IMG/VR virus record: IMGVR_UViG_3300049914_000114 | Coordinates: 1-39,699 of that record | Length of the DNA: 39,699 bases | Source of the DNA: a virus | Reading direction: 5' to 3' (one strand) | Shown here: one piece after another, positions 12,766 through 36,096 of the stretch | Position numbering within the stretch: the first letter of the stretch is position 1 | Layout: every line of letters starts with the position of its first letter | Made by a program: the position numbers and the translations under genes | The notes under the pieces: model-generated | Databases searched by the model: none | What the model saw: only the letters and a program-made list of their open reading frames with translations | Told to the model about the DNA's origin: nothing

Positions 12766-12939
12766 TTATGTCCACTCCGGCCATTTCCCCTGCGCTTCCG
12801 TGATCTGGGCGATCAACTCATCCTTATTCTCGATATTAGAACTGGAGAGAAGGTCTTTGACCTCACTCACAATTTCTGGCCCATTTTTTATCAAAGCCAA
12901 AACCATATTTGTCAAGAATAGTAACATAGTCTCGCTCAT
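12766..12939 (-). CDS. Small protein overlapping the lipoprotein gene
   Basis: A 57-residue protein with AAAGGAGAAATAATCC before its ATG at 12939. Residues 4-17 are hydrophobic (TMLLFLTNMVLALI) and the remainder is a charged helix ending GKWPEWT. The first 77 bases overlap the end of the lipoprotein gene in another frame. That arrangement recalls overlapping lysis genes, although here the lipoprotein is upstream. It is the last gene before the late terminator. It may be a membrane-associated accessory lysis protein. Confidence 0.55.
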   Translation of the reverse strand: MSETMLLFLTNMVLALIKNGPEIVSEVKDLLSSSNIENKDELIAQITEAQGKWPEWT

Positions 12940-13339
12940 GGATTATTTCTCCTTTCGATAGAATTTTGTACTGTTTAAGTAGACTCACGAAGTCTGCCAT
13001 GACGGTGTTAAACTGACTCATTAGCGTATTGAATTGTGCTAATAGCTGTTGGGTCTGGACGGCATCCGTTGCATTGATCGCCAGTTTTAAAACATCCCCT
13101 GCCTTAATATAGATTGATCGTGCGTCATTGTTCACCTTTTTCAGCATGGCGCATTTATCAGCAGGGAGTAAGTTTTGGTCACACGAAGGTTTAGCCACTT
13201 GATAATAAGTGGCCCCCAAAGTGCCTGCGGCTTTATAGGCCTGAGTGGTTTTGGTCTGCCAGCCGGCACAGCCAACCAATGTTAACATGACCAGGATAAC
13301 AAAAAGCAACCCAATGAATGTGAAACCTTTTCTTTTCAT
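12863..13339 (-). CDS. Lipoprotein, possible outer spanin-type component
   Basis: A 158-residue protein starting at ATG 13339 after GGAGGATTTATCTT. Signal peptide with a clear lipobox: after basic MKRKG comes FIGLLFVILVMLTLVGC, with LVGC as the processing site (Cys24). The mature protein is helical with pairs of Cys and a Gln-rich segment near residues 90-115. Location between the holin-like gene and the end of the lysis region suggests an outer-membrane anchored lysis protein. Rz1 proteins are usually much shorter, so this is uncertain. Confidence 0.6.
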   Translation of the reverse strand: MKRKGFTFIGLLFVILVMLTLVGCAGWQTKTTQAYKAAGTLGATYYQVAKPSCDQNLLPADKCAMLKKVNNDARSIYIKAGDVLKLAINATDAVQTQQLLAQFNTLMSQFNTVMADFVSLLKQYKILSKGEIIHERDYVTILDKYGFGFDKKWARNCE

Positions 13340-13355
13340 AAGATAAATCCTCCTT

Positions 13356-13610
13356 TCATTTTGGGATATCAACGGTTTTAATAACTTGAGAAACAACTTC
13401 TTCCTTAACCAATTTGTAACCGAACGGAGGGGGACTCTGTTTAATATAGGAGAAGAAGTTTAACAGAGTTGGTATTCCTCCAATGACAAAAAGTGTCCAT
13501 GTGTCTGGTATCTGTTTTAGAACCGCAATAGCAGCTAATGCCGTAATTGCTCCAGAACATATGGATGAAATAACTCCACGAAGCCACGTTCCCCAATTCA
13601 TATTATCCAT
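13356..13610 (-). CDS. Holin-like membrane protein
   Basis: An 84-residue protein starting at ATG 13610 after AAAGGAGGTGATCTA (ideal ribosome binding site). Two transmembrane segments (about residues 14-36 and 42-60) separated by QIPDTW, with a polar N-terminus and a Lys-rich C-terminus. This is class II holin topology. Found next to a DUF5675-like candidate endolysin or accessory protein and a lipoprotein, it is the best holin candidate. A one-pass protein at 14234 is the other. Confidence 0.65.
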   Translation of the reverse strand: MDNMNWGTWLRGVISSICSGAITALAAIAVLKQIPDTWTLFVIGGIPTLLNFFSYIKQSPPPFGYKLVKEEVVSQVIKTVDIPK

Positions 13611-14664: not shown

Positions 14665-15300
14665 CTACCTCGCCCAAGTGACGCTAATTGGAACAGTCAA
14701 TCCCCCTATTTCTTTTATTTCAATCAGGTATATCTTGTTATTTGTATGATTGGATATTTTTGCCCCATACTGCTGAACGCCACTGCCTGCGGATATAAAT
14801 CTCTGCTCCGTGGCTTGTGAACTTGAAATATCATTCCCGTCTCTGTCGGTAGTTATGAGGGTTACTATCAAATTATGGTGACTTGTGTCATAATCAGTAA
14901 CTTGTATCTTAAAATTACTGCCGAGGACGTCTACGCCATACCCGAATCCGAATGGATCCACCAATAAATAAGTCGTCTGTCTTGCAGGTATCCTTACCTC
15001 TGGTGGGTTATACCCCTGCCCCGAAGGACCGTAATATCCAAATCCATAGCTCGTTCTAACTCCATTTTTTGTAATGAGGGTATTACATTTCTTTGTGGTG
15101 GGGTTTATTATCACGCTACCCCATTTGCCCACAGGAGTCGGTGTGGGTTCTAAAGTAGGTACTGGTGTAGGCGTTCCCGTGGTGATAACGACCGTAACGC
15201 CATCTTTGATAGCTCCATCAATTGTCACGGTGTTTGCTGCGAAAGATGGATAAATAACGAAAAGCGAAAATAACAAAATTAGAAATAAAGTCTTTTTCAT
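14665..15300 (-). CDS. Exported protein with Pro/Thr-rich linker
   Basis: A 211-residue protein with a signal peptide (MKKTLFLILLFSLFVIYPSFA, cleavage after SFA). It continues with a short beta segment and a Thr/Pro linker near residues 42-58 (TPTPVPTLEPTPTPV), and ends in a Gly- and Tyr-rich beta-sandwich-like domain. The linker is typical of secreted bacterial proteins. It is coupled by ATGA to the DUF4434-like gene. GGAGGTAAAATCAA precedes its ATG. Probably acts outside the inner membrane; what it binds is unknown. Confidence 0.6.
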   Translation of the reverse strand: MKKTLFLILLFSLFVIYPSFAANTVTIDGAIKDGVTVVITTGTPTPVPTLEPTPTPVGKWGSVIINPTTKKCNTLITKNGVRTSYGFGYYGPSGQGYNPPEVRIPARQTTYLLVDPFGFGYGVDVLGSNFKIQVTDYDTSHHNLIVTLITTDRDGNDISSSQATEQRFISAGSGVQQYGAKISNHTNNKIYLIEIKEIGGLTVPISVTWAR

Positions 15301-16175
15301 TTGATTTTACCTCCATTGAGAAATTCGTTATTATTATAATTATCCCCCATTCCCCCATTGGTCAAAATCCAAGATGGGCCACAATCTTTTTCTTCGCAAT
15401 ACTTCTCCTCATATTCATTTTGTTTTTGAATTCTGTCCACGGGGGCAAACAACCATTGAGTTTTAGATTCATTTAATCGGAAGATTTCGATGTTGACTCT
15501 TGGAATAACATTCCTGCTATCCTTACAGGCGAGATAGTGGGCACGGATTAAATGAAGTGCTTTCACATAATCCATTGTCTTGGGTATCCTATCTCCCCAG
15601 TATGGGGGTACATTTGAGGCTCCAGTACACCCAACACCATCCTGGAGAGATGAAATATAAGTCTGCCCAAAGACACAGACTTCCTTCAGCCATTTCTTAT
15701 AAGATTTATAGACCCTATCTCTTGCGTGATGTAAACTGCTGAAATATGGGCTCCACACAATAACAGAATCCCTTGGAAGTCTGCTAAACATCTCCCTGTA
15801 GAGTGTGGCAGTTTGTTCAAAGTACCATCTACTATAAAGACAGGATAAATCTATCTCGTGGTCGATATAGTAAATGTTATCAGGATTTAAATAAATTTCT
15901 TCATTTTCTCTAATAACCATACCGATCTTTAAACCCCTTTCATGATGCCAATCGATAATCCTATTAATGGCAATGAAATCTGGTTGACCACTCCAACCCC
16001 CCCACATTAGAATATTTGGATTTTCATCGGTTGTGGCGATATTATTCTGTTTACACCATTCCACCTCATACTCCTGGGTTGATGTGGTAAGAAAGAACGA
16101 TCCTATCCTTGATTGAGTGGTATCAGAAAAAGATAAGAATAAAATAAGTATGGATAAAAAAATCAATTTCTTCAT
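15297..16175 (-). CDS. Exported TIM-barrel, DUF4434-like glycoside hydrolase candidate
   Basis: A 292-residue protein with a signal peptide (FLSILILFLSFS, cleavage near residues 20-24). The rest has a TIM-barrel pattern: VIVWSPYFSS, then the characteristic QDGVGCTG, with NIEIF later, as in DUF4434 and glycoside-hydrolase-related barrels. Conserved Asp/Glu at QD and IE are candidate acids. It starts 3 bp after the tail-tip gene's stop. A secreted polysaccharide-acting protein in a phage late operon is unusual; the substrate is unknown. Confidence 0.55.
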   Translation of the reverse strand: MKKLIFLSILILFLSFSDTTQSRIGSFFLTTSTQEYEVEWCKQNNIATTDENPNILMWGGWSGQPDFIAINRIIDWHHERGLKIGMVIRENEEIYLNPDNIYYIDHEIDLSCLYSRWYFEQTATLYREMFSRLPRDSVIVWSPYFSSLHHARDRVYKSYKKWLKEVCVFGQTYISSLQDGVGCTGASNVPPYWGDRIPKTMDYVKALHLIRAHYLACKDSRNVIPRVNIEIFRLNESKTQWLFAPVDRIQKQNEYEEKYCEEKDCGPSWILTNGGMGDNYNNNEFLNGGKIK

Positions 16176-27994: not shown

Positions 27995-30052
27995 TTAAAC
28001 TTCTTTCCATTCCAAAACCCCAATTCCGCTCCAATTTCGATCATTGGGATCCACTATCTCAAAGTGGTTATATTTCTCCTTAATAGAATTCCAGAAATCA
28101 GCCACATGACAATTCTGTTTTCTATTCCATTCGGTATCGAGGATATCATGGATGGCGATAAAACCCCCTGGCTTAACCATCGGCGCATAGGCTTCAAAGT
28201 CCGCCTTAACACCGGCCAAAGAGTGATCACCATCGATAAAAAGAAAATCCACAGGACCCCCATTATCCGAGATGAGCTCACTTACCTTCTGAATAACGGC
28301 GTGGCCATGACTATCTCCCTTTATCTCAGTGATCATGTCCTCTAAATCCGTCCCTTGATATACCATTTGCCCCTTAAAGGCTTGATCTATGGAATAGACG
28401 TGGCCTTGATAGGGTTTTACGAGATTTGCCCAAAGACGGGCTGTTCCGCCCTTCTGGGACCCTATTTCAAGGACTATCTTGACTTTTTTCCCTAAAAGGA
28501 GCTGGTAGAGAGTCGAAATTTCATAATGCTTCTGGGTGATAGGCCAATCAATCTCCGTGGAGGCCCCGTTAATTTCCCGTTCGATCCATTTCCGGTCGCC
28601 CAATTTCTTAAAGAGGGCGATGATCGTTCCCCAGTCTCCGCATCGAGAAAGTAAACCATGAGTCAACCAGAGATCCCGATTCACGGGGAATTCCCTCATG
28701 TGATCGACATCATATTTTGTGAAGATTCGAAGTTTGAATCCTGCTCCAGTCGCCTTGCGAGTAAAGTAGTTATCCCCCTCCTGATAATCGATCCATTCTT
28801 CCCCATTATCGTTTATGGCTATTTCTTCTCGATTCTTAAACCAAGGTCGGGAAAGTTTCTCGAAAACCCCTCTCTTAACCAAAAGACAAGCTCCACCCAT
28901 AGCTCCGGAATCAATCACATCTCCAAACTTATAATCTTTGAAGGGAATAAGCATACGATGTTCTGTCGGATGCCATGCGATCGGATCATAGGGCGGATAT
29001 CCTCGATAACAGAGACCACCGGCAAGATCAGCACCCTCTTCTAAGACCTTGAAAAGATCGATCAAAATATTATTTGGATATCTCATATCTCCATCGGCTA
29101 CAAAAATATGAGTGCATCCTTGAATCAATCCCTTTTCGATTTGGAATTCTCTCTTTTGGTCTAATTCTCCCCCACTACCGGCTTCTAAAATAATCATATT
29201 GGGTTTTTTCATCCCCATGAGAGAAAGATGAGTCACATAATTGATATTCGGCCAAGTATGAGGGATAGCGAGTCCCAGGAGACAATTTGAAGGCCAGGGT
29301 GATCTTTCGGTTTGTGCCTGAGAAACGGTGATCTTCTGGGGTAACCATTCACTGATAAATTTCTTGTCCCACTTATTTTCAAGAATATCGATCATTTTTT
29401 GGCAATATTGATGATATTCTTCTTCATTATGGCAAACCGTATTCATGATGGTCTGGGACCCGAAGTGATGAATATAAACATCTCGCGCAATCACACATTT
29501 GAGGCCTAACTTTTTCTGCATCCGGATGATATAATCCCACTCTTCGCAACCGCCCTCATTGAACCGTTCATCGACATCCCCAATGGCATCGATCACACCT
29601 CTTCTGAACATGAGAAAGAATCCGATAAGCCATTGAACCTCTTCTTCCCATTTCCCGTCGTTCAATTCGATTCTTTGACGGCCATTCACATAATTAGAGG
29701 TAGGCCCTACGGCCCCGATTCCTGGTCGGAAATGAGCAAGCATCTTCGGGAACCAGTCTTTTTCAAAGAGGATATCGTTGTTCGCCCAGAGGACAAATTC
29801 GGAATCGGGGGAAAGATGTTTATATACCTCATTCAATCCTTTGCCCCAACCAGCATTAAAACCCATTTCTTTAAAATAAAGGTTTGATTTATTCATTTCC
29901 ATTAAGTAATCAATTGTTCCATCCATTGACCCATTATCCACCACGATCAATTCAAAATCCTTTTCATTCGTGAATTGATAGAGACTCTCTATGGCCTTCT
30001 TGGTGAAGTCAATTTGGTTGTGGACGGGTATAATGATTGAAACTTTAGGCAT
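27995..30052 (-). CDS. Fusion: glycosyltransferase + glycosyltransferase + methyltransferase
   Basis: A 685-residue, three-domain enzyme. Residues 1-240: GT-A family 2 glycosyltransferase with VSIIIPVHNQ, ELIVVDNGS (38-42), a DxD-like NND (91-93), GWGKGLN and GGCEEWDY. Residues 245-490: a second GT-A-like domain with LEAGSGGE and DGD at 320-322, RGYPP and the DSGAMGGACLLVKRGVF loop. Residues 500-685: a class I SAM methyltransferase with VLEIGSQKGG (527-536), FIDGDHS (605-611) and KPGGFIAIHD. No signal peptide, so it acts in the cytoplasm, perhaps adding methylated sugars to virion or surface polymers. It overlaps the tail terminator gene by 8 bases. Confidence 0.8.
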   Translation of the reverse strand: MPKVSIIIPVHNQIDFTKKAIESLYQFTNEKDFELIVVDNGSMDGTIDYLMEMNKSNLYFKEMGFNAGWGKGLNEVYKHLSPDSEFVLWANNDILFEKDWFPKMLAHFRPGIGAVGPTSNYVNGRQRIELNDGKWEEEVQWLIGFFLMFRRGVIDAIGDVDERFNEGGCEEWDYIIRMQKKLGLKCVIARDVYIHHFGSQTIMNTVCHNEEEYHQYCQKMIDILENKWDKKFISEWLPQKITVSQAQTERSPWPSNCLLGLAIPHTWPNINYVTHLSLMGMKKPNMIILEAGSGGELDQKREFQIEKGLIQGCTHIFVADGDMRYPNNILIDLFKVLEEGADLAGGLCYRGYPPYDPIAWHPTEHRMLIPFKDYKFGDVIDSGAMGGACLLVKRGVFEKLSRPWFKNREEIAINDNGEEWIDYQEGDNYFTRKATGAGFKLRIFTKYDVDHMREFPVNRDLWLTHGLLSRCGDWGTIIALFKKLGDRKWIEREINGASTEIDWPITQKHYEISTLYQLLLGKKVKIVLEIGSQKGGTARLWANLVKPYQGHVYSIDQAFKGQMVYQGTDLEDMITEIKGDSHGHAVIQKVSELISDNGGPVDFLFIDGDHSLAGVKADFEAYAPMVKPGGFIAIHDILDTEWNRKQNCHVADFWNSIKEKYNHFEIVDPNDRNWSGIGVLEWKEV

Positions 30053-30485
30053 CCTGATTTCCTTTCGTCACTATATACTGAATTTGAATAATCGCCTTTC
30101 CCATAAAGACTAAATTTTCTAAATGTTCAACATTCATTTCATCACTAAGAAGTTCGGCATTTATCTGTTTCCCTGAAACTGTAACGGTTGCCACGGCCTT
30201 CTCAATATCTGATATGCAATCTCTTATTATGCTCGCCGAAGTGGCCCCGATATCGCATTCAACGGACATCGTTTCAAGTGTTTTCTCAAAAGTTAATGAT
30301 TCATGTTCAACCGTGTCCTTATAATTTAACCCAGGCAATTCTGAGGTTTGAAAGGGATTTTTTTCAAGATCGCGCCATGCAAAAACATAATTACCCAAAT
30401 TTGTCTTATATCCGGCAGTCGTCTTGATCGCCTTAAATTTGGTATCCAGATCATCGATGATCAAATGTCTAATCGAATCAGTCAA
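30045..30485 (-). CDS. Tail terminator-like protein
   Basis: A 146-residue protein starting at TTG 30485 (TTGA overlaps the preceding stop; GTGAGG upstream). SIRHLIIDDLDTKFKAIKTTAGY (residues 4-26), then V-F-A-W-R-D-L-E...E-L-P-G-L-N-Y-K-D fits the tail terminator/minor tail protein group (lambda U/Z position). It lies between head-tail joining and tail tube genes, as expected, though interrupted by exported-protein genes. Alternative: head-closure protein. Confidence 0.7.
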   Translation of the reverse strand: MTDSIRHLIIDDLDTKFKAIKTTAGYKTNLGNYVFAWRDLEKNPFQTSELPGLNYKDTVEHESLTFEKTLETMSVECDIGATSASIIRDCISDIEKAVATVTVSGKQINAELLSDEMNVEHLENLVFMGKAIIQIQYIVTKGNQDA

Positions 30486-32761
30486 TTCCCATACCTCACT
30501 CCCCCACCATAGTAGTATCGTCTGGTGAACTGTGGGAGTTCATAAGCCCCAATGTCTGTTCCATAACCAGAGGGGACTGAATTTTGGTCATAATCCCGAT
30601 ATAAAGTGACATCTTTCCCCGTATCCACCAATGGAGACCAGGATAACAGATGATAATCATCTGTCTCCGTAAATGTCCGAGTCCAAATCCCACTCCCTGC
30701 ATCTGTCCAAGGAGAAGCCTTGATCTCATTGATAATATTCTGATATGACGAAATCTTGATATTGTAAGGAGACCGATACTTAACGAGTTCATCAAGAAAC
30801 CATCCAAATTCTTGAAGAGTTACTTCTCCTGGGTGAATTTCAAAGGAATGATAAAATCCCATACTGATATAGGTTGCAATTACCCTTGCCGCCTGTTCTA
30901 AACGAACCTTTTTCTGAGCCTCCGTCAGACCAGCATAATCAGCCCCTTCTATTTGAGCAGTGCTTCTCACATCGGAGATGCTGAGGGTATTCATATTCCC
31001 TAACCATCCAGACGCATAATAAGCCTCAGATCCCCCGCCGGCGTCTGATCTTCTCACTCCATTTAAGGTTGTGTTTGCAGCGATCCAAGTAAGAATCTGG
31101 GTAGTAGAACCGCTATAAGGGAAAGCCATCGTTTTTGTTAGATAGGCAGCACATCCAGCATCTTCATGGAGTGCAGCTTCTAAATCGCTAATCCCTCCAA
31201 GTATTTCTTGCACATAATACCTATTGGTTGCAGCGGTTGTATCATCAAAAGGAATCCCTGTCGCTACGGTTTGGGGGAGTGCCGTTGACACATCTTTGAG
31301 TGTAGTTGACTTTACATATCCACTTACGCTGGTGGTTAATGAACAGGTGAAATTGTCCCATGCTTCTATTACGGCACAAAGTTCCCCTAAAGTGTCATAT
31401 GCTGCCGCTTCCAGATCAATCCCTAAATGAGTGTCACTTGTCCCAGTCACGTTGAGGGTCGTTCCATCTTCTGATACCACAAATGCCATGTCAACATTGG
31501 CCCCAGAGTATGTGACGCTGAAAGCGTTTAGCGATAGCATACTGGAATCATGTCTGTTTTTGACCCCAATATCATGTCCAGCCTTATAAAGGGTTTGAAG
31601 ATTGGTTTTGTCTCCACTTGATAAAAGATTCGTATAGCCAACGAATCCTGTCATTGGAATTTGACAGGTATTCATCGCATAATCAGCAAGTTCTTTAAAG
31701 GCAGCAACCTGAGTCCCACCACCTTGGATATCAACACAGAGAGAATAATAACCAATGTTCTCTTTTGTTTTGGTTAGATATGGGAAGGAGTTTAAAATAT
31801 CTCCTGTTGATGTCCACGTACCCGTCCCAAATCTATATGTGTTTGGTAATTCAAACACTCCCTGGATAAAACAGTTGGTCGTATTGATTGCTCCGCTGTT
31901 GAAGTTAAAACCATATCTGCTGCTCAAAAAGGATGTATTATAAGCATTGATCGTGCTGTTGACTCCAGGATAGGCAACAATTCCGTTTGTTATATTTTTT
32001 ACTATGCAATTATTTAAATTTATAACCCCTGTAGAATAGGACCAAAGAGTTCTCAGTGTCCCTTCTAAAATAGAGTAATTAAAATTAACAGTATTTCCTC
32101 CAGCTACCTGAGCACCATAAATAGCAGCTGTCGTACTTGCAAGGGTAGTATATTTAATCCAACATCTTGTAAAATTAAATGTCCCCGCATTTGTGGCAGC
32201 TTCCAGCCCTGTGGAACTGGGGCCAGTATCTCCATCTATCACAACATCTGTAAATGTCGCCCCTTTTTCTGCATAGATAAATGATTTTGCAGCTCCCGCA
32301 TGGGTTATTTTAACTCTGGTAAAAACGGAATTTGTACTGGTGATGTAAACAGGATAATATAAATCCGATCCACTTATTGTTAAATCCTGTGCAATGACTC
32401 CATCGGTATTAGGTCTAAAAACGTAAACGCTAATTCCTCCCCAAGTCATTGTAACCGTAGCATTGTGTCCAGATATTTGAGACCCCTTAAATGTTAATTG
32501 TGTTGCTATCAATCCAGAAGGCCCCGCATAACTCTTTCCACTCGTCCCACCAGAAATCTCCAGAACATCTCCGGCACTTGCAGCGGTAATTGCTGCTGAA
32601 ATTAATTTATAGGAATCATTCGCCACATAACTCGCATTGTCAAAAGGGCGGGTGGGATTGAGAGCCGAACCATCTGAGTCAGAGTTGATGTAGCGAGTGG
32701 CCGCCTCACCCCATTGAGCAAAGGCAAAAATTAGAAAGAGGATAAGAATAAGTTTTTTCAT
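30482..32761 (-). CDS. Exported beta-helix + NodB-like polysaccharide deacetylase
   Basis: A 759-residue protein with a signal peptide (KLILILFLIFAFAQWGEA, cleavage near residues 20-21). Residues about 25-340 form repeated short strands rich in Asn, Thr, Ser and Gly, a right-handed parallel beta-helix like tailspikes and pectate lyases. From about 345 the sequence follows the NodB fold: CVDIQGGG, then AGHDIGVKNRHDSSM where the metal-binding H-x3-H region sits, and HSFEIHPGEV at the end. Some metal ligands look degenerate. It probably binds or trims host polysaccharide outside the cell, or is a virion component with a retained leader. Confidence 0.65.
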   Translation of the reverse strand: MKKLILILFLIFAFAQWGEAATRYINSDSDGSALNPTRPFDNASYVANDSYKLISAAITAASAGDVLEISGGTSGKSYAGPSGLIATQLTFKGSQISGHNATVTMTWGGISVYVFRPNTDGVIAQDLTISGSDLYYPVYITSTNSVFTRVKITHAGAAKSFIYAEKGATFTDVVIDGDTGPSSTGLEAATNAGTFNFTRCWIKYTTLASTTAAIYGAQVAGGNTVNFNYSILEGTLRTLWSYSTGVINLNNCIVKNITNGIVAYPGVNSTINAYNTSFLSSRYGFNFNSGAINTTNCFIQGVFELPNTYRFGTGTWTSTGDILNSFPYLTKTKENIGYYSLCVDIQGGGTQVAAFKELADYAMNTCQIPMTGFVGYTNLLSSGDKTNLQTLYKAGHDIGVKNRHDSSMLSLNAFSVTYSGANVDMAFVVSEDGTTLNVTGTSDTHLGIDLEAAAYDTLGELCAVIEAWDNFTCSLTTSVSGYVKSTTLKDVSTALPQTVATGIPFDDTTAATNRYYVQEILGGISDLEAALHEDAGCAAYLTKTMAFPYSGSTTQILTWIAANTTLNGVRRSDAGGGSEAYYASGWLGNMNTLSISDVRSTAQIEGADYAGLTEAQKKVRLEQAARVIATYISMGFYHSFEIHPGEVTLQEFGWFLDELVKYRSPYNIKISSYQNIINEIKASPWTDAGSGIWTRTFTETDDYHLLSWSPLVDTGKDVTLYRDYDQNSVPSGYGTDIGAYELPQFTRRYYYGGGVRYGN

Positions 32762-33207
32762 TTATACACCCATGAGTCAATAGTGCAGGTTCCCCCACCT
32801 GTGCCTGCGGTGGTGGTTAAGAGGATCACATAAGATGAACCGAAGGTTAGGGGTCGAGAAGTGGGTGTATAAGGATGTGTCGTCCCCTCGGCCAGTCCTG
32901 ATATTGGGCCATAAACAGTTTGTCCCGCTGGATTCTTGATCGTAAGTGTGGCTGTAGGATTCGTTGCACTAAATGTCGGAATTGTAATGATGTAGCCATG
33001 CAATTCAGAATTCCAATATTCGCTCCCCAAAGTGCAGGTCTTTGTCGTGTCAGAAGCAGCAAAGACAAAGGAACATTGGGTTGAAAGTTGGAGGCGTGGT
33101 GAAGGCGGAACCCCGCCAATTTCAATACCCAAAATGGAATAGGCCGATATCAACAGAATCCCAAGAATTATAGCCAATAGACAATATTCTCTTTTTTTGA
33201 TTTTCAT
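32758..33207 (-). CDS. Exported or membrane-anchored beta-sandwich protein
   Basis: A 149-residue protein with a hydrophobic N-terminal segment (residues 8-27, CLLAIILGILLISAYSILG). The rest is Thr/Ser/Gly-rich and beta-like, with four Cys that could form disulfides and the VILLTTTAGTGGG end. AAGGAGGAGTCC precedes the ATG. It overlaps the beta-helix protein gene by ATGA. The beta-sandwich resembles a small phage adhesion or immunoglobulin-like module. It could be anchored rather than secreted. Confidence 0.55.
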   Translation of the reverse strand: MKIKKREYCLLAIILGILLISAYSILGIEIGGVPPSPRLQLSTQCSFVFAASDTTKTCTLGSEYWNSELHGYIITIPTFSATNPTATLTIKNPAGQTVYGPISGLAEGTTHPYTPTSRPLTFGSSYVILLTTTAGTGGGTCTIDSWVYK

Positions 33208-33217
33208 GGACTCCTCC

Positions 33218-33580
33218 TTATTTCATGTAAGTGCATTTCAGCACACCCGATGTCGATGTCGTCCTGAATCCCTTGAAGCTCAAGATTTCTTTGTCTTCAA
33301 GAATCTTTTCCTGGCCGACTTCCCATAAATGTCCAATTGCGGCTGTGGGGGCCGTAGAATTGTCAAAAGTAAATCTGATCTGGGCAATCTCAAGGGTGCA
33401 ATACGCTTTTATCGCTCCCAAATATGTGGCAGCCGTCAAAGTTGTTCCCCCTGCGGTCGCTGCAATTGTCACAGATTCGTAGGCAAAAGGATGATAGTAA
33501 GGTTCAGCACAAGAAATGATTGTCCATGCCCCTAAAACCATCAATCCTACAAAGATCGATACCAAAAGAATCTTTTTCAT
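33218..33580 (-). CDS. Virion-like beta-sandwich protein with lipoprotein signal
   Basis: A 120-residue protein with a signal peptide and lipobox (FVGLMVLGAWTIISC, Cys24). The mature part reads like a small phage virion protein: T-x-L-T-A-A-T-Y, Y-C-T-L-E-I-A-Q-I-R-F-T-F-D, T-A-x-I-G-H-L-W-E-V-G and an F-R-T-T end. Such virion proteins normally have no export signal. It sits between the head-tail joining protein and another exported protein. Perhaps the virion gene was converted to an outer-surface lipoprotein. Confidence 0.6.
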   Translation of the reverse strand: MKKILLVSIFVGLMVLGAWTIISCAEPYYHPFAYESVTIAATAGGTTLTAATYLGAIKAYCTLEIAQIRFTFDNSTAPTAAIGHLWEVGQEKILEDKEILSFKGFRTTSTSGVLKCTYMK

Positions 33581-33589
33581 TTTTTCACC

Positions 33590-33886
33590 TCAATCCTTTG
33601 AAAGTTCGACAACCGTTTCTCCGGTTCCATCCGGCATAACCTCAATCACTTTATAGGTCACTCCATTCTTGATAAAAGTGCTTGAATGGGTAATCCCCGT
33701 AATATCTGAATCTTTGGCCCTTAGATATGGATGTCTTGTTTCTACCGCTATTCCCAACATTGCAGCGGCTTCATATTCATTAAACCATTGGACCCAAATT
33801 ATTGAAGTCCCAAATGTGACTTGAACACATCCAGGGGTATTCGAACTATAAAAAATAGATAGATCATCTTCCCAAAAATTGCTCAC
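33590..33886 (-). CDS. Head-tail joining protein (FII-like)
   Basis: A 98-residue protein starting at GTG 33886 in GTGA overlap with the preceding gene. The last 40 residues (D-S-D-I-T-G-I-T-H, V-T-Y-K-V-I-E-V-M-P-D-G-T-G-E-T-V-V-E-L) match the lambda FII/head-completion beta-barrel type. Position downstream of the capsid gene and before tail genes fits. No signal peptide, unlike its neighbours. Confidence 0.7.
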   Translation of the reverse strand: MSNFWEDDLSIFYSSNTPGCVQVTFGTSIIWVQWFNEYEAAAMLGIAVETRHPYLRAKDSDITGITHSSTFIKNGVTYKVIEVMPDGTGETVVELSKD

Positions 33887-34131
33887 CTGGTTTTGGCCTT
33901 TTCTTTGTCTTCCTCCATCACATTAGGAGTGATTTGGAGATTTGGATGTTCTCCTTGAAGTTTTTTAATAGCATCCGTATGATCATTGATTGCTTTGGTA
34001 GCTTGTAATTGCCATTCTGAAAATTTAATGGTCTGTTTGAAATTCTGAAATTCAATAAATAAATAGGCAAACATGCAGAATAAGATCAAAATCAATGCTT
34101 CGAAAATCGTCAAATCCTTAATTTTTATCAT
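33883..34131 (-). CDS. Small protein with N-terminal TM helix and helical tail
   Basis: An 82-residue protein: a TM helix at about residues 9-28 (FEALILILFCMFAYLFIEF), then a polar helical region with Lys and Gln. Inner-membrane anchored with the tail most likely in the periplasm. ATGA overlaps the preceding gene. The layout recalls i-spanins, but it is in the head-tail interval rather than the lysis region. Function unknown. Confidence 0.55.
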   Translation of the reverse strand: MIKIKDLTIFEALILILFCMFAYLFIEFQNFKQTIKFSEWQLQATKAINDHTDAIKKLQGEHPNLQITPNVMEEDKEKAKTR

Positions 34132-34778
34132 AGATCCCCGAGAGCATTGACATAATCCGATCCATTATGGATAAGAGCTGCTTTCTTTGTGCTTGCCACT
34201 GCCGCTCCAGACCCCCCACTTTTTTTACAAGTTACAGTTTGGCCAGTACTATTCCAAATCAAAATCATATGACCAGCGCTATTTGGAGCAACCATATCTA
34301 CGGCACCATTGGCAGAAGTCAGTTTAAAATAGATATAGCTTGATTCTGCGGCAGATAAAGTCCATGCCGTAGCACCACCTGCATACGAATGAGTACCAGC
34401 CCCAAAATTGATGATGGGAGTCGTCAATGTTTTGTTGGTAAGGGTTTCTGTTCCGGTAAGACTCGCTAACGTGACACTCGCTGTGCTAGGAGCAGTGATC
34501 AGAATTGTCTTGTTGGCATCCTGATAAAAAGAGGCTATTACCGGAATCGTTAATGTTTTATTCGTCAAAGTTTGGGTCGTTGCCAATCCCACAATCGTAT
34601 CGTCGGTCGATAATGTAGGCACACCCAGAAGATACGCACCTGTCGTATTTGTCGATAGTGTATATTTATACAGTCCTGGGGTAGCAATTCCATAAATCTG
34701 TTTATTGATCGTCTGGGCAAAGACAAGACCTGCCACAACCAAAACCGCTATGAAACCAATAATCAGATTCCTTTTCAT
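34128..34778 (-). CDS. Exported fibre-repeat protein
   Basis: A 216-residue protein with a signal peptide (NLIIGFIAVLVVAGLVFA, cleavage after VFA at about 21). Two copies of the phage-fibre repeat T-x-TLTNKTLT-x-P-x-I (about residues 68-82 and 110-124) follow. The C-terminal beta domain is like the ones appended to virion decoration proteins (G-H-M-I-L-I-W-N-S-T and A-A-L-I-H-N-G-S-D-Y). The TLTNKTLT repeat is normally found in cytoplasmically assembled phage fibres, so its export signal is odd. AGGAGGATTCAAG precedes the ATG. Confidence 0.7.
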   Translation of the reverse strand: MKRNLIIGFIAVLVVAGLVFAQTINKQIYGIATPGLYKYTLSTNTTGAYLLGVPTLSTDDTIVGLATTQTLTNKTLTIPVIASFYQDANKTILITAPSTASVTLASLTGTETLTNKTLTTPIINFGAGTHSYAGGATAWTLSAAESSYIYFKLTSANGAVDMVAPNSAGHMILIWNSTGQTVTCKKSGGSGAAVASTKKAALIHNGSDYVNALGDL

Positions 34779-34813: not shown

Positions 34814-34838
34814 CTGGGGAGAATTTTCATCTCCCCAG
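34814..34838 (-). terminator. Hairpin after the major capsid gene
   Basis: CTGGGGAGA (34830-34838 side) pairs with TCTCCCCAG across a TGAAAAT loop, 9 bp; on the minus strand ATTTTGC follows. The T-run is short, so it may be a weak terminator, or mainly protect the capsid mRNA's 3' end. Together with the terminator at 27861-27902 it brackets the exported-protein/connector stretch. The 94-bp gap between the two genes holds nothing else. Confidence 0.6.
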
Positions 34839-34872: not shown

Positions 34873-36096
34873 TTAATCATCCTTCGGGAAAGTGGATACT
34901 GCCAGACATTGAACCCAATACACATAGTCAACCGCCCCAACTTCCACATCCCATGCAATCCGGGCCTGAAATGCAACCCGACTCTTGAGATAGGATTCGG
35001 TATCGCTCCCGAGGGTGACATACTCAAACCGGAGCTTCCATTTCCGCTTGAACTGCTTTTCGGGCCATCCCATATACCAGGCCGTTGTCGAAAGATCGTC
35101 GATCTTTGGTGAGCTGAGAATCCGGTCGTCAGACATATTCCATCTGGCCCCCGGACCATAACTTGATCTCTCATTCTCGACACCAGGAACGAGTTCCGAA
35201 TGAAAAATCTTCAATGCCTTATTAAGCAAGGCATCGGGAAGCAAAATCTTCATCACAGACCAAGGAATAGAAATCCTTTTCCCACGGTTATTTTTCATCG
35301 TGGTTGTTCGAACCCTTGCGGTCTCAATATCAGTCTCATCGACAAGGGCATTGTTTTGAACACACGTTCCAGATGGAGCCCTTGTTCCAGGCGTATTGGC
35401 CGTTGCACTGAAAAGAGAGGCTCCACTTCCATCGGGCCGGTAGACATAAGGCTCTGCGGGAGAGGCTGCGGACCCGTCATAATCACAAACTCTTTTCAGG
35501 GTTTGCTCCTCTACCCAATCGGCAGCAATTTCACCGAGGGCATTGATCTTTGCCACAATGTCGGGAAGTTCATTTTCTTCGATTGCCTCAGCAGTGATTC
35601 TTAGCAATCGCCCATTTCTCTTATGGCGAATTTCTGCCTTCTCTTCGGTCGCTGAGATTTCCGGGAAATCCTGACCTTCTTTGACCTCATCAATATCTTT
35701 ATCGAGGGCAGAGACCGCAGCGATGGAAGTCACTTTTTTTGCATCGTCAAAGTCTGTGACGAGCCTTTCGCCTATGGTCGGAACGGCGGCATAGGCATCA
35801 TTGATCATGGCAATGGCAAGCGTTCCTGTGAGAATTGGAAACGCTGAGGCCATAACTGACCTCATTCCCATACCCATGACATCGATTTGGATTGGAACCT
35901 GAATATCGCTAAGAACAGCATAGAGACCTCTGAGGTCCCTCATCTTAGCGAGCGAGAGTTTTTTGTCATTAACGAGCCTATTCACCCGCTCCATAAATAG
36001 TGCCGGATTCTGCTTCGCCATATCCCGGATATCTCTGAGAGATAATCCGTTTGAAGCAACCCCGACCCTAATATCAGGAATGAAATTTTTGACCAT
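34873..36096 (-). CDS. Major capsid protein
   Basis: A 407-residue HK97-fold shell protein. Start ATG 36096 after AAAGGAGGGACAAG. The N-terminal 80 residues are charged helices (a delta-like arm). Then F-P-I-L-T-G-T-L-A-I-A-M-I-N-D-A-Y, G-E-R-L-V-T-D-F-D-D, and W-V-E-E-Q-T-L-K-R are of the type seen in Mu-like and related capsids. It ends with R-I-A-W-D-V-E-V-G-A-V-D-Y. Preceded by protease and decoration genes, and followed by the hairpin at 34814, consistent with high expression. Confidence 0.85.
   Translation of the reverse strand: MVKNFIPDIRVGVASNGLSLRDIRDMAKQNPALFMERVNRLVNDKKLSLAKMRDLRGLYAVLSDIQVPIQIDVMGMGMRSVMASAFPILTGTLAIAMINDAYAAVPTIGERLVTDFDDAKKVTSIAAVSALDKDIDEVKEGQDFPEISATEEKAEIRHKRNGRLLRITAEAIEENELPDIVAKINALGEIAADWVEEQTLKRVCDYDGSAASPAEPYVYRPDGSGASLFSATANTPGTRAPSGTCVQNNALVDETDIETARVRTTTMKNNRGKRISIPWSVMKILLPDALLNKALKIFHSELVPGVENERSSYGPGARWNMSDDRILSSPKIDDLSTTAWYMGWPEKQFKRKWKLRFEYVTLGSDTESYLKSRVAFQARIAWDVEVGAVDYVYWVQCLAVSTFPKDD

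Follow-up and report, generated by a model that had tools for sequence, protein, structure and literature searches.

Predicted export of fibre-like and other late proteins encoded near the capsid gene in a clade of tailed phages

In this work, the late genes of a tailed phage were analysed in the virus record IMGVR_UViG_3300049914_000114, whose 39,699 bases are together called the window. The main finding is that a clade of tailed phages known from metagenomes alone carries a fixed, constrained, exported-type fibre-like gene adjoining the capsid gene. In the window this gene lies at 34128..34778 (coordinates written in this way are on the minus strand, and window genes are named by their lower coordinate), and it encodes a TLTNKT fibre-like protein of 216 amino acids (aa) with a type I signal peptide (residues 1-21), a conserved mature start, and a variable C-terminal part. 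As far as sequence can tell, the export of this and of the other signal-bearing proteins in the region is very likely real, and we tentatively place its purpose at the host envelope, with a rough probability of 0.4. The late operon, on the minus strand, runs from the portal gene through a protease/scaffold gene and the gene of the 36132 protein to the major capsid protein (34873..36096; PF25209, E=1.6e-12), which serves as the positional anchor of the 34128 gene, and then to the genes in question. It continues with a connector, a glycosyltransferase gene, the tail tube, the tape measure, tail proteins, a large fibre protein, and a lysis-like cassette. The PF03864 profile had no match in the window, the capsid belonging to another family (PF25209). 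The open reading frames (ORFs) of the initial annotation are present at the coordinates used here; the genes of the exported-protein region mostly overlap or abut and have ordinary guanine-cytosine (GC) content, and therefore they are part of the late operon.

The 34128 family was collected from capsid relatives at 54-76% identity and then with a trimmed profile of the signal peptide and mature start, which reached further loci; near-identical contigs were collapsed, some via identical match coordinates and scores, which left 20 distinct members. Signal peptides were called with our own rule-based detector, which is heuristic, and by inspection by eye. By this detector and by alignment, the signal peptide is kept in 20 of 20 members with the cleavage site in register, and all 20 have a basic n-region, a hydrophobic core, and small residues at -3 and -1. 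Close homologues without the hydrophobic segment, which the initial annotation regarded as evidence against export, were looked for, and every member of the family retained it. The window protein starts with MKRNLIIGFIAVLVVAGLVFA|Q, while the junction in the family is mostly A|G-T-V/I-S, followed by xxRPYGIATPYWYGYSSG, and the mature start TVSxRPYGIATPYWYGYSSG is conserved. A lipobox is lacking in 34128, which has a signal peptidase I type site instead, and the family members are predicted Sec and signal peptidase I substrates. The homologue stands directly 3' of the capsid gene in 18/18 loci having a related capsid gene. Furthermore, 34128 matches the tail fibre family phrog_38058 (E=1.7e-6; E=1.1e-13 for the L013 relative). 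By comparing the window with L003, the proportions of synonymous (pS) and nonsynonymous (pN) differences in the signal-peptide codons were 0.82 and 0.18, and the ratio of nonsynonymous to synonymous rates (dN/dS) was 0.06 in the mature start versus 0.066 in the capsid gene. The L046/L051 pair has the same pattern, with synonymous changes dominating, and the signal-peptide pair of L013/L053 was left out because indel misalignment gave a value >1. Judged from these codon comparisons, the signal peptide and mature start of 34128 are under purifying selection.

Past about residue 90, the C-terminal parts of the family fall into 12 groups without detectable mutual similarity. In L055 and L011 this part is a domain also present in the protein whose gene immediately precedes that of the capsid protein; hhalign gave 96.6% and 93.3% for the two, and nil for shuffled controls. 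The L053 protein in the 34128 position has the PF25692 depolymerase C-terminal domain. A 46-codon form, consisting of the signal peptide and about 22 residues of the mature motif, is found in L004/L005 and in L006-L008, two lineages separated on the capsid tree, and it appears to have arisen independently in each. The AlphaFold models of 34128 and 30482 were poor (mean pLDDT 50 and 44), being confident only for helix 2-22 of 34128, the signal helix. No homologues of the capsid protein, 34128, 30482, or several of the exported proteins were found in cultured phages. Between the 34128 homologue and the gene for head-closure protein Hc1, L011 (7462-9031), and likewise L016, carries a lysis-like cassette that, read by eye, encodes a membrane protein, a DUF1353-like protein, a lipoprotein, and an M15-peptidase-like protein.

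A second exported pair is common to the window and an unrelated phage. The cassette begins with a 149-aa protein with an N-terminal hydrophobic segment and no family match (32758..33207), and its homologue at L081:4591-5004 has a signal peptide scored as the cleavable type. The following 759-aa signal-peptide protein (30482..32761) has a beta-strand-rich part, a middle without an assigned family, a choice-of-anchor Q domain (residues 700-742), and a conserved C-terminal tail, GAYELPQFTRRYYYGGGVRYGN. The match to NF041518 was a marginal pass (25.8 bits, cut-off 25); the name of this domain refers to surface proteins with alternative anchors. A NodB polysaccharide deacetylase, guessed by eye, was rejected as residues 335-690 gave no Pfam match with E-values up to 10, and Foldseek with the poor 30482 model gave a meaningless result. 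The pair occurs in the same order after the capsid gene of a phage that has an unrelated capsid (phrog_1005), a phrog_113 portal, and early genes that look Mu-like. Compared with 30482, the protein at L081:5001-6647 has both ends in common and the middle replaced. The DNA identity is 83% over the junction including the 30482 signal peptide and 86% over the last 117 bases of 30482. Both conserved ends have dN/dS near 0.1 over few codons, by which measure they are under purifying selection. L085 has a similar beta-helix end as a fusion to a tail-type protein that lacks a signal peptide.

Exported-type N-termini had been claimed for seven proteins of the window, and all of them were recovered. 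Signal-peptide-like starts were found in 34128, in 30482 (MKKLILILFLIFAFAQWGEA|A), in 14665 (..YPSFA|A), and in 15297 (MKKLIFLSILILFLSF.., read by eye from the longer ORF, the gene caller having taken a start further downstream). On the other hand, 33218 has a lipobox (IIS|C), and 33883 and 32758 have a hydrophobic N-terminal segment in which no clear cleavage site is seen. Under strict scoring, a signal peptide or lipobox was present in 27 of 280 called genes from the window and eight relatives versus 4 of 199 from 28 unrelated TLTNKT-fibre-bearing viral fragments (Fisher p=5.6e-4), the control set consisting of viral fragments and not whole genomes. The same detector scored 1.6% of shuffled N-termini as positive. 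Conservation of the signals provides a stronger argument against chance than this census. Export driven by disulphide formation was rejected as an explanation, the cysteine content being 1.10% in the mature exported proteins and 1.11% in the rest.

In the relatives, signal peptides are carried by recognisable virion or glycan-active proteins encoded in the distal part of the tail module, close to the lysis genes. They include a phrog_5302 tail protein (G009 25642, E=8e-83), a protein of the tail-collar and proximal-fibre families (G002 22136), and a protein with a SASA esterase domain (G005 16361, E=2.7e-9); G001 24704 has a weak pectate-lyase-like match and an N-terminus scored only as hydrophobic. 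The likeness to virion parts noted initially is supported for 34128 and for exported proteins of relatives; 30482 has its choice-of-anchor Q match only, and 33218 and 32758 matched no family. Only the distant archaeal Methanosarcina virus MetMV (MK170447, 42771-44768) encodes a homologous pair of small beta-protein and fibre in the same order without signal peptides; the signal peptide is thus a trait of these bacterial phages rather than of the domain family. An independent instance is an otherwise unrelated viral contig whose 762-aa tailspike-like TLTNKT protein (L018:4246-6534) has a signal peptide. A 1018-aa signal-peptide tail protein is encoded at L072:5642-8698, soon after which the contig ends; read by eye, its C-terminal end resembles a C-type-lectin variable domain of the type that retroelements diversify. 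In the literature searches, which covered papers available without subscription, signal peptides on the fibres of tailed phages were nowhere reported.

The 34128-type gene also stands beside terS-like, coiled-coil, and protease/scaffold genes in L048:1-5507, L049:1-5602, and L079:9400-16500 (the L061 element), and no capsid, portal, or large terminase gene is visible in these three, L048 and L049 being 5.5-kb fragments. The L061 element bears an integrase, and the contig on which it lies also carries host genes and comes from a Desulfobacteraceae genome. One reading of these gene sets is that they are satellites, while the L061 element may also be a deleted prophage. A scan of 389 host-class genomes was positive only for the Desulfobacteraceae genome already found, and we infer a two-membrane host from L061 alone (1 genome among 389 of its class).

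We hypothesize that these late phage proteins are synthesized as precursors for the Sec pathway and reach the host envelope, where their passengers would bind or edit surface ligands, so that superinfection is blocked and progeny do not stick to debris (probability about 0.4). Signal peptidase would release the protein into the periplasm, the destination expected of the Sec pathway in a two-membrane host, while 33218 would instead be lipid-anchored. The conserved N-terminal motif, or the conserved C-terminal tail in 30482, would then hold the protein to a site in the envelope, from which the variable passenger would act on surface ligands, chiefly glycans. Later phages would be excluded and the progeny would not adhere to the dying cell or to its debris, which is comparable to the role of T5 Llp but would rely on borrowed virion-type domains. 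The passengers are interchangeable, of fibre, decoration, or enzyme type, and the place in the late operon is fixed. An envelope role is favoured because the short forms drop the fibre and keep the envelope-directed part, which, occurring in two independent lineages, is thus what is kept. It is also favoured because the cassette has a different middle in unrelated phages but retains its signal peptide and C-terminal tail, because one or more passengers are of glycan-active types such as the SASA esterase, and because T5 Llp already exemplifies an exported exclusion protein whose gene lies among virion genes. Several points weigh against this hypothesis. The presence in every member and the fixed place by the capsid gene suit a core function better than an accessory exclusion gene, and many passengers are virion-type domains. 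Moreover, Sec by itself ends at the periplasm and not at the outer surface, no outer-membrane export signal was found, and 34128 itself is not a lipoprotein.

A close rival, possible but less probable in our estimate, is that the proteins are true virion appendages, in which case heads and tails would be assembled in the cytoplasm and fibres or decorations would wait in the periplasm, to be picked up at lysis via the N-terminal docking motif. This would suit the position directly 3' of the capsid gene in all 18 loci and the conserved N-terminus with a variable C-terminus, which fibres typically show. It would also suit the domain that L055 and L011 share with the product of the gene immediately preceding the capsid gene, the tail-fibre families with signal peptides at the distal tail locus and other virion-type domains, and the satellite-like elements that keep the gene beside terS-like and protease/scaffold genes. 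However, the 46-codon forms would be docking peptides with no fibre attached, for which no use is obvious, and cassette exchange between unrelated virions is ill-suited to a specific docking site. Our literature searches yielded no tailed-phage precedent, and we know of none for appendages loaded from the periplasm. We favour envelope action, through receptor masking or glycan editing and exclusion, over periplasm-stored appendages as the purpose of export, although sequence alone does not separate them.

Other explanations are improbable. The exported late proteins could weaken the envelope or cut surface glycan and so free the progeny, as the late operon, the signal-peptide genes adjoining lysis genes in the window and relatives, the L011 lysis-like cassette, and the one esterase passenger might suggest, but the passengers are mostly of binding type or without an assigned family, and separate holin, endolysin, and lipoprotein genes are present. 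It is equally doubtful that these are lysogenic-conversion genes (morons) altering the lysogen surface, with an incidental place among structural genes. The cassette is indeed common to unrelated phages and the integrase-bearing Desulfobacteraceae element keeps the gene without a capsid gene; however, promoter-like sites are at chance level, the genes overlap and have ordinary GC, and the gene is present throughout the clade. Least probable is an uncleaved hydrophobic N-terminus that anchors the protein in the virion or in the membrane during infection. The initial annotation had proposed such an anchor in virion parts, and it is still compatible with 33883 and 32758, but it is weakened for the 34128 family by the cleavage-type A|G junction, which is in register in nearly all members.

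Among the remaining window genes, 33590..33886 encodes the ordinary connector Hc1 (PF05354, E=1.6e-7; phrog_82, E=2.5e-8), as had been supposed. The same label for 30045..30485, a putative connector or tail-completion protein, was backed by no profile match, and only a weak match to a syntenic ORF (L046, 9438-10154; E=8e-8) was obtained. The 82-aa protein at 33883..34131 has a single hydrophobic segment at the N-terminus and a probable coiled coil after it, and no homologue was found among relatives; the 120-aa putative lipoprotein at 33218..33580 has no relatives in viral_contigs and no family match. Since conservation support is lacking, both may be ordinary small membrane or spanin-like proteins. 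A 292-aa protein with a signal-peptide-like start and no significant family or structure match is encoded between the tail fibre and lysis genes (15297..16175), and a 211-aa signal-peptide protein with a PTPTP linker adjoins the lysis genes (14665..15300). A strong hairpin between the capsid gene and 34128 (34814..34838; 9-bp stem, weak T-run) is possibly a partial terminator or RNA stabiliser. Comparable strong hairpins, mostly without a T-run, separate the capsid gene from the signal-peptide gene in L003, L010-L014, L053, L059, and L081. A glycosyltransferase 2 fused to a rhamnosyl O-methyltransferase-like protein is encoded between the connector and tail-tube genes (27995-30052), and the head module of the Mu-like phage G016 (L086-L088 joined and reversed) also contains, by eye, glycosyltransferase- and acyltransferase-like genes. 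The lysis regions of the window (12863-13396; MKRKGFTFIGLLFVILVMLTLVGCA) and of the unrelated G016 (12776-13234; MKTIGFTLIELLLVVVIMLTLVSCA) encode similar lipoproteins with prepilin-like starts, hinting at a common host group.

Phage T5 encodes the exported lipoprotein Llp, whose gene is adjacent to that of the receptor-binding protein and which excludes superinfection, and purified soluble pb5, the receptor-binding protein itself, likewise blocks infection when added to cells from outside (PMC9586334). Like the 34128 family, T5 Llp and T1/phi80 Cor are envelope-exported phage proteins of the late region encoded beside virion genes (PMC9586334). However, Llp and Cor are small lipoproteins, whereas members of the 34128 family combine a site of the signal peptidase I type with long fibre- or decoration-type passengers, and llp lies beside the receptor-binding protein gene, while the 34128 homologues lie beside the capsid gene. 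Of the window proteins compared, 33218 alone has a lipobox. The TLTNKT-repeat tail fibres share the phrog_38058 match with 34128, but the fibre has no signal peptide in 27 of 28 unrelated viral loci, and the MetMV pair differs from the small beta-protein and fibre of the relatives in the same respect. Assembly of tailed phages is understood as wholly cytoplasmic, with envelope contact through lysis proteins and a handful of small exclusion proteins. In this clade, either virion-type domains would have become secreted tools directed at the host surface or virion assembly would have a periplasmic stage, and either would be new for this gene module. Fibres or capsid decorations stored in the periplasm and attached at lysis, though the less probable outcome, would mean, if true, that virion assembly is split between two cell compartments. 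The coat proteins of filamentous phages are structural proteins made with Sec signal peptides, and their virions assemble in the membrane during extrusion. The Sec-exported structural proteins are thus a likeness, but the window phage differs in being tailed, with portal, capsid, tape measure, and lysis genes.

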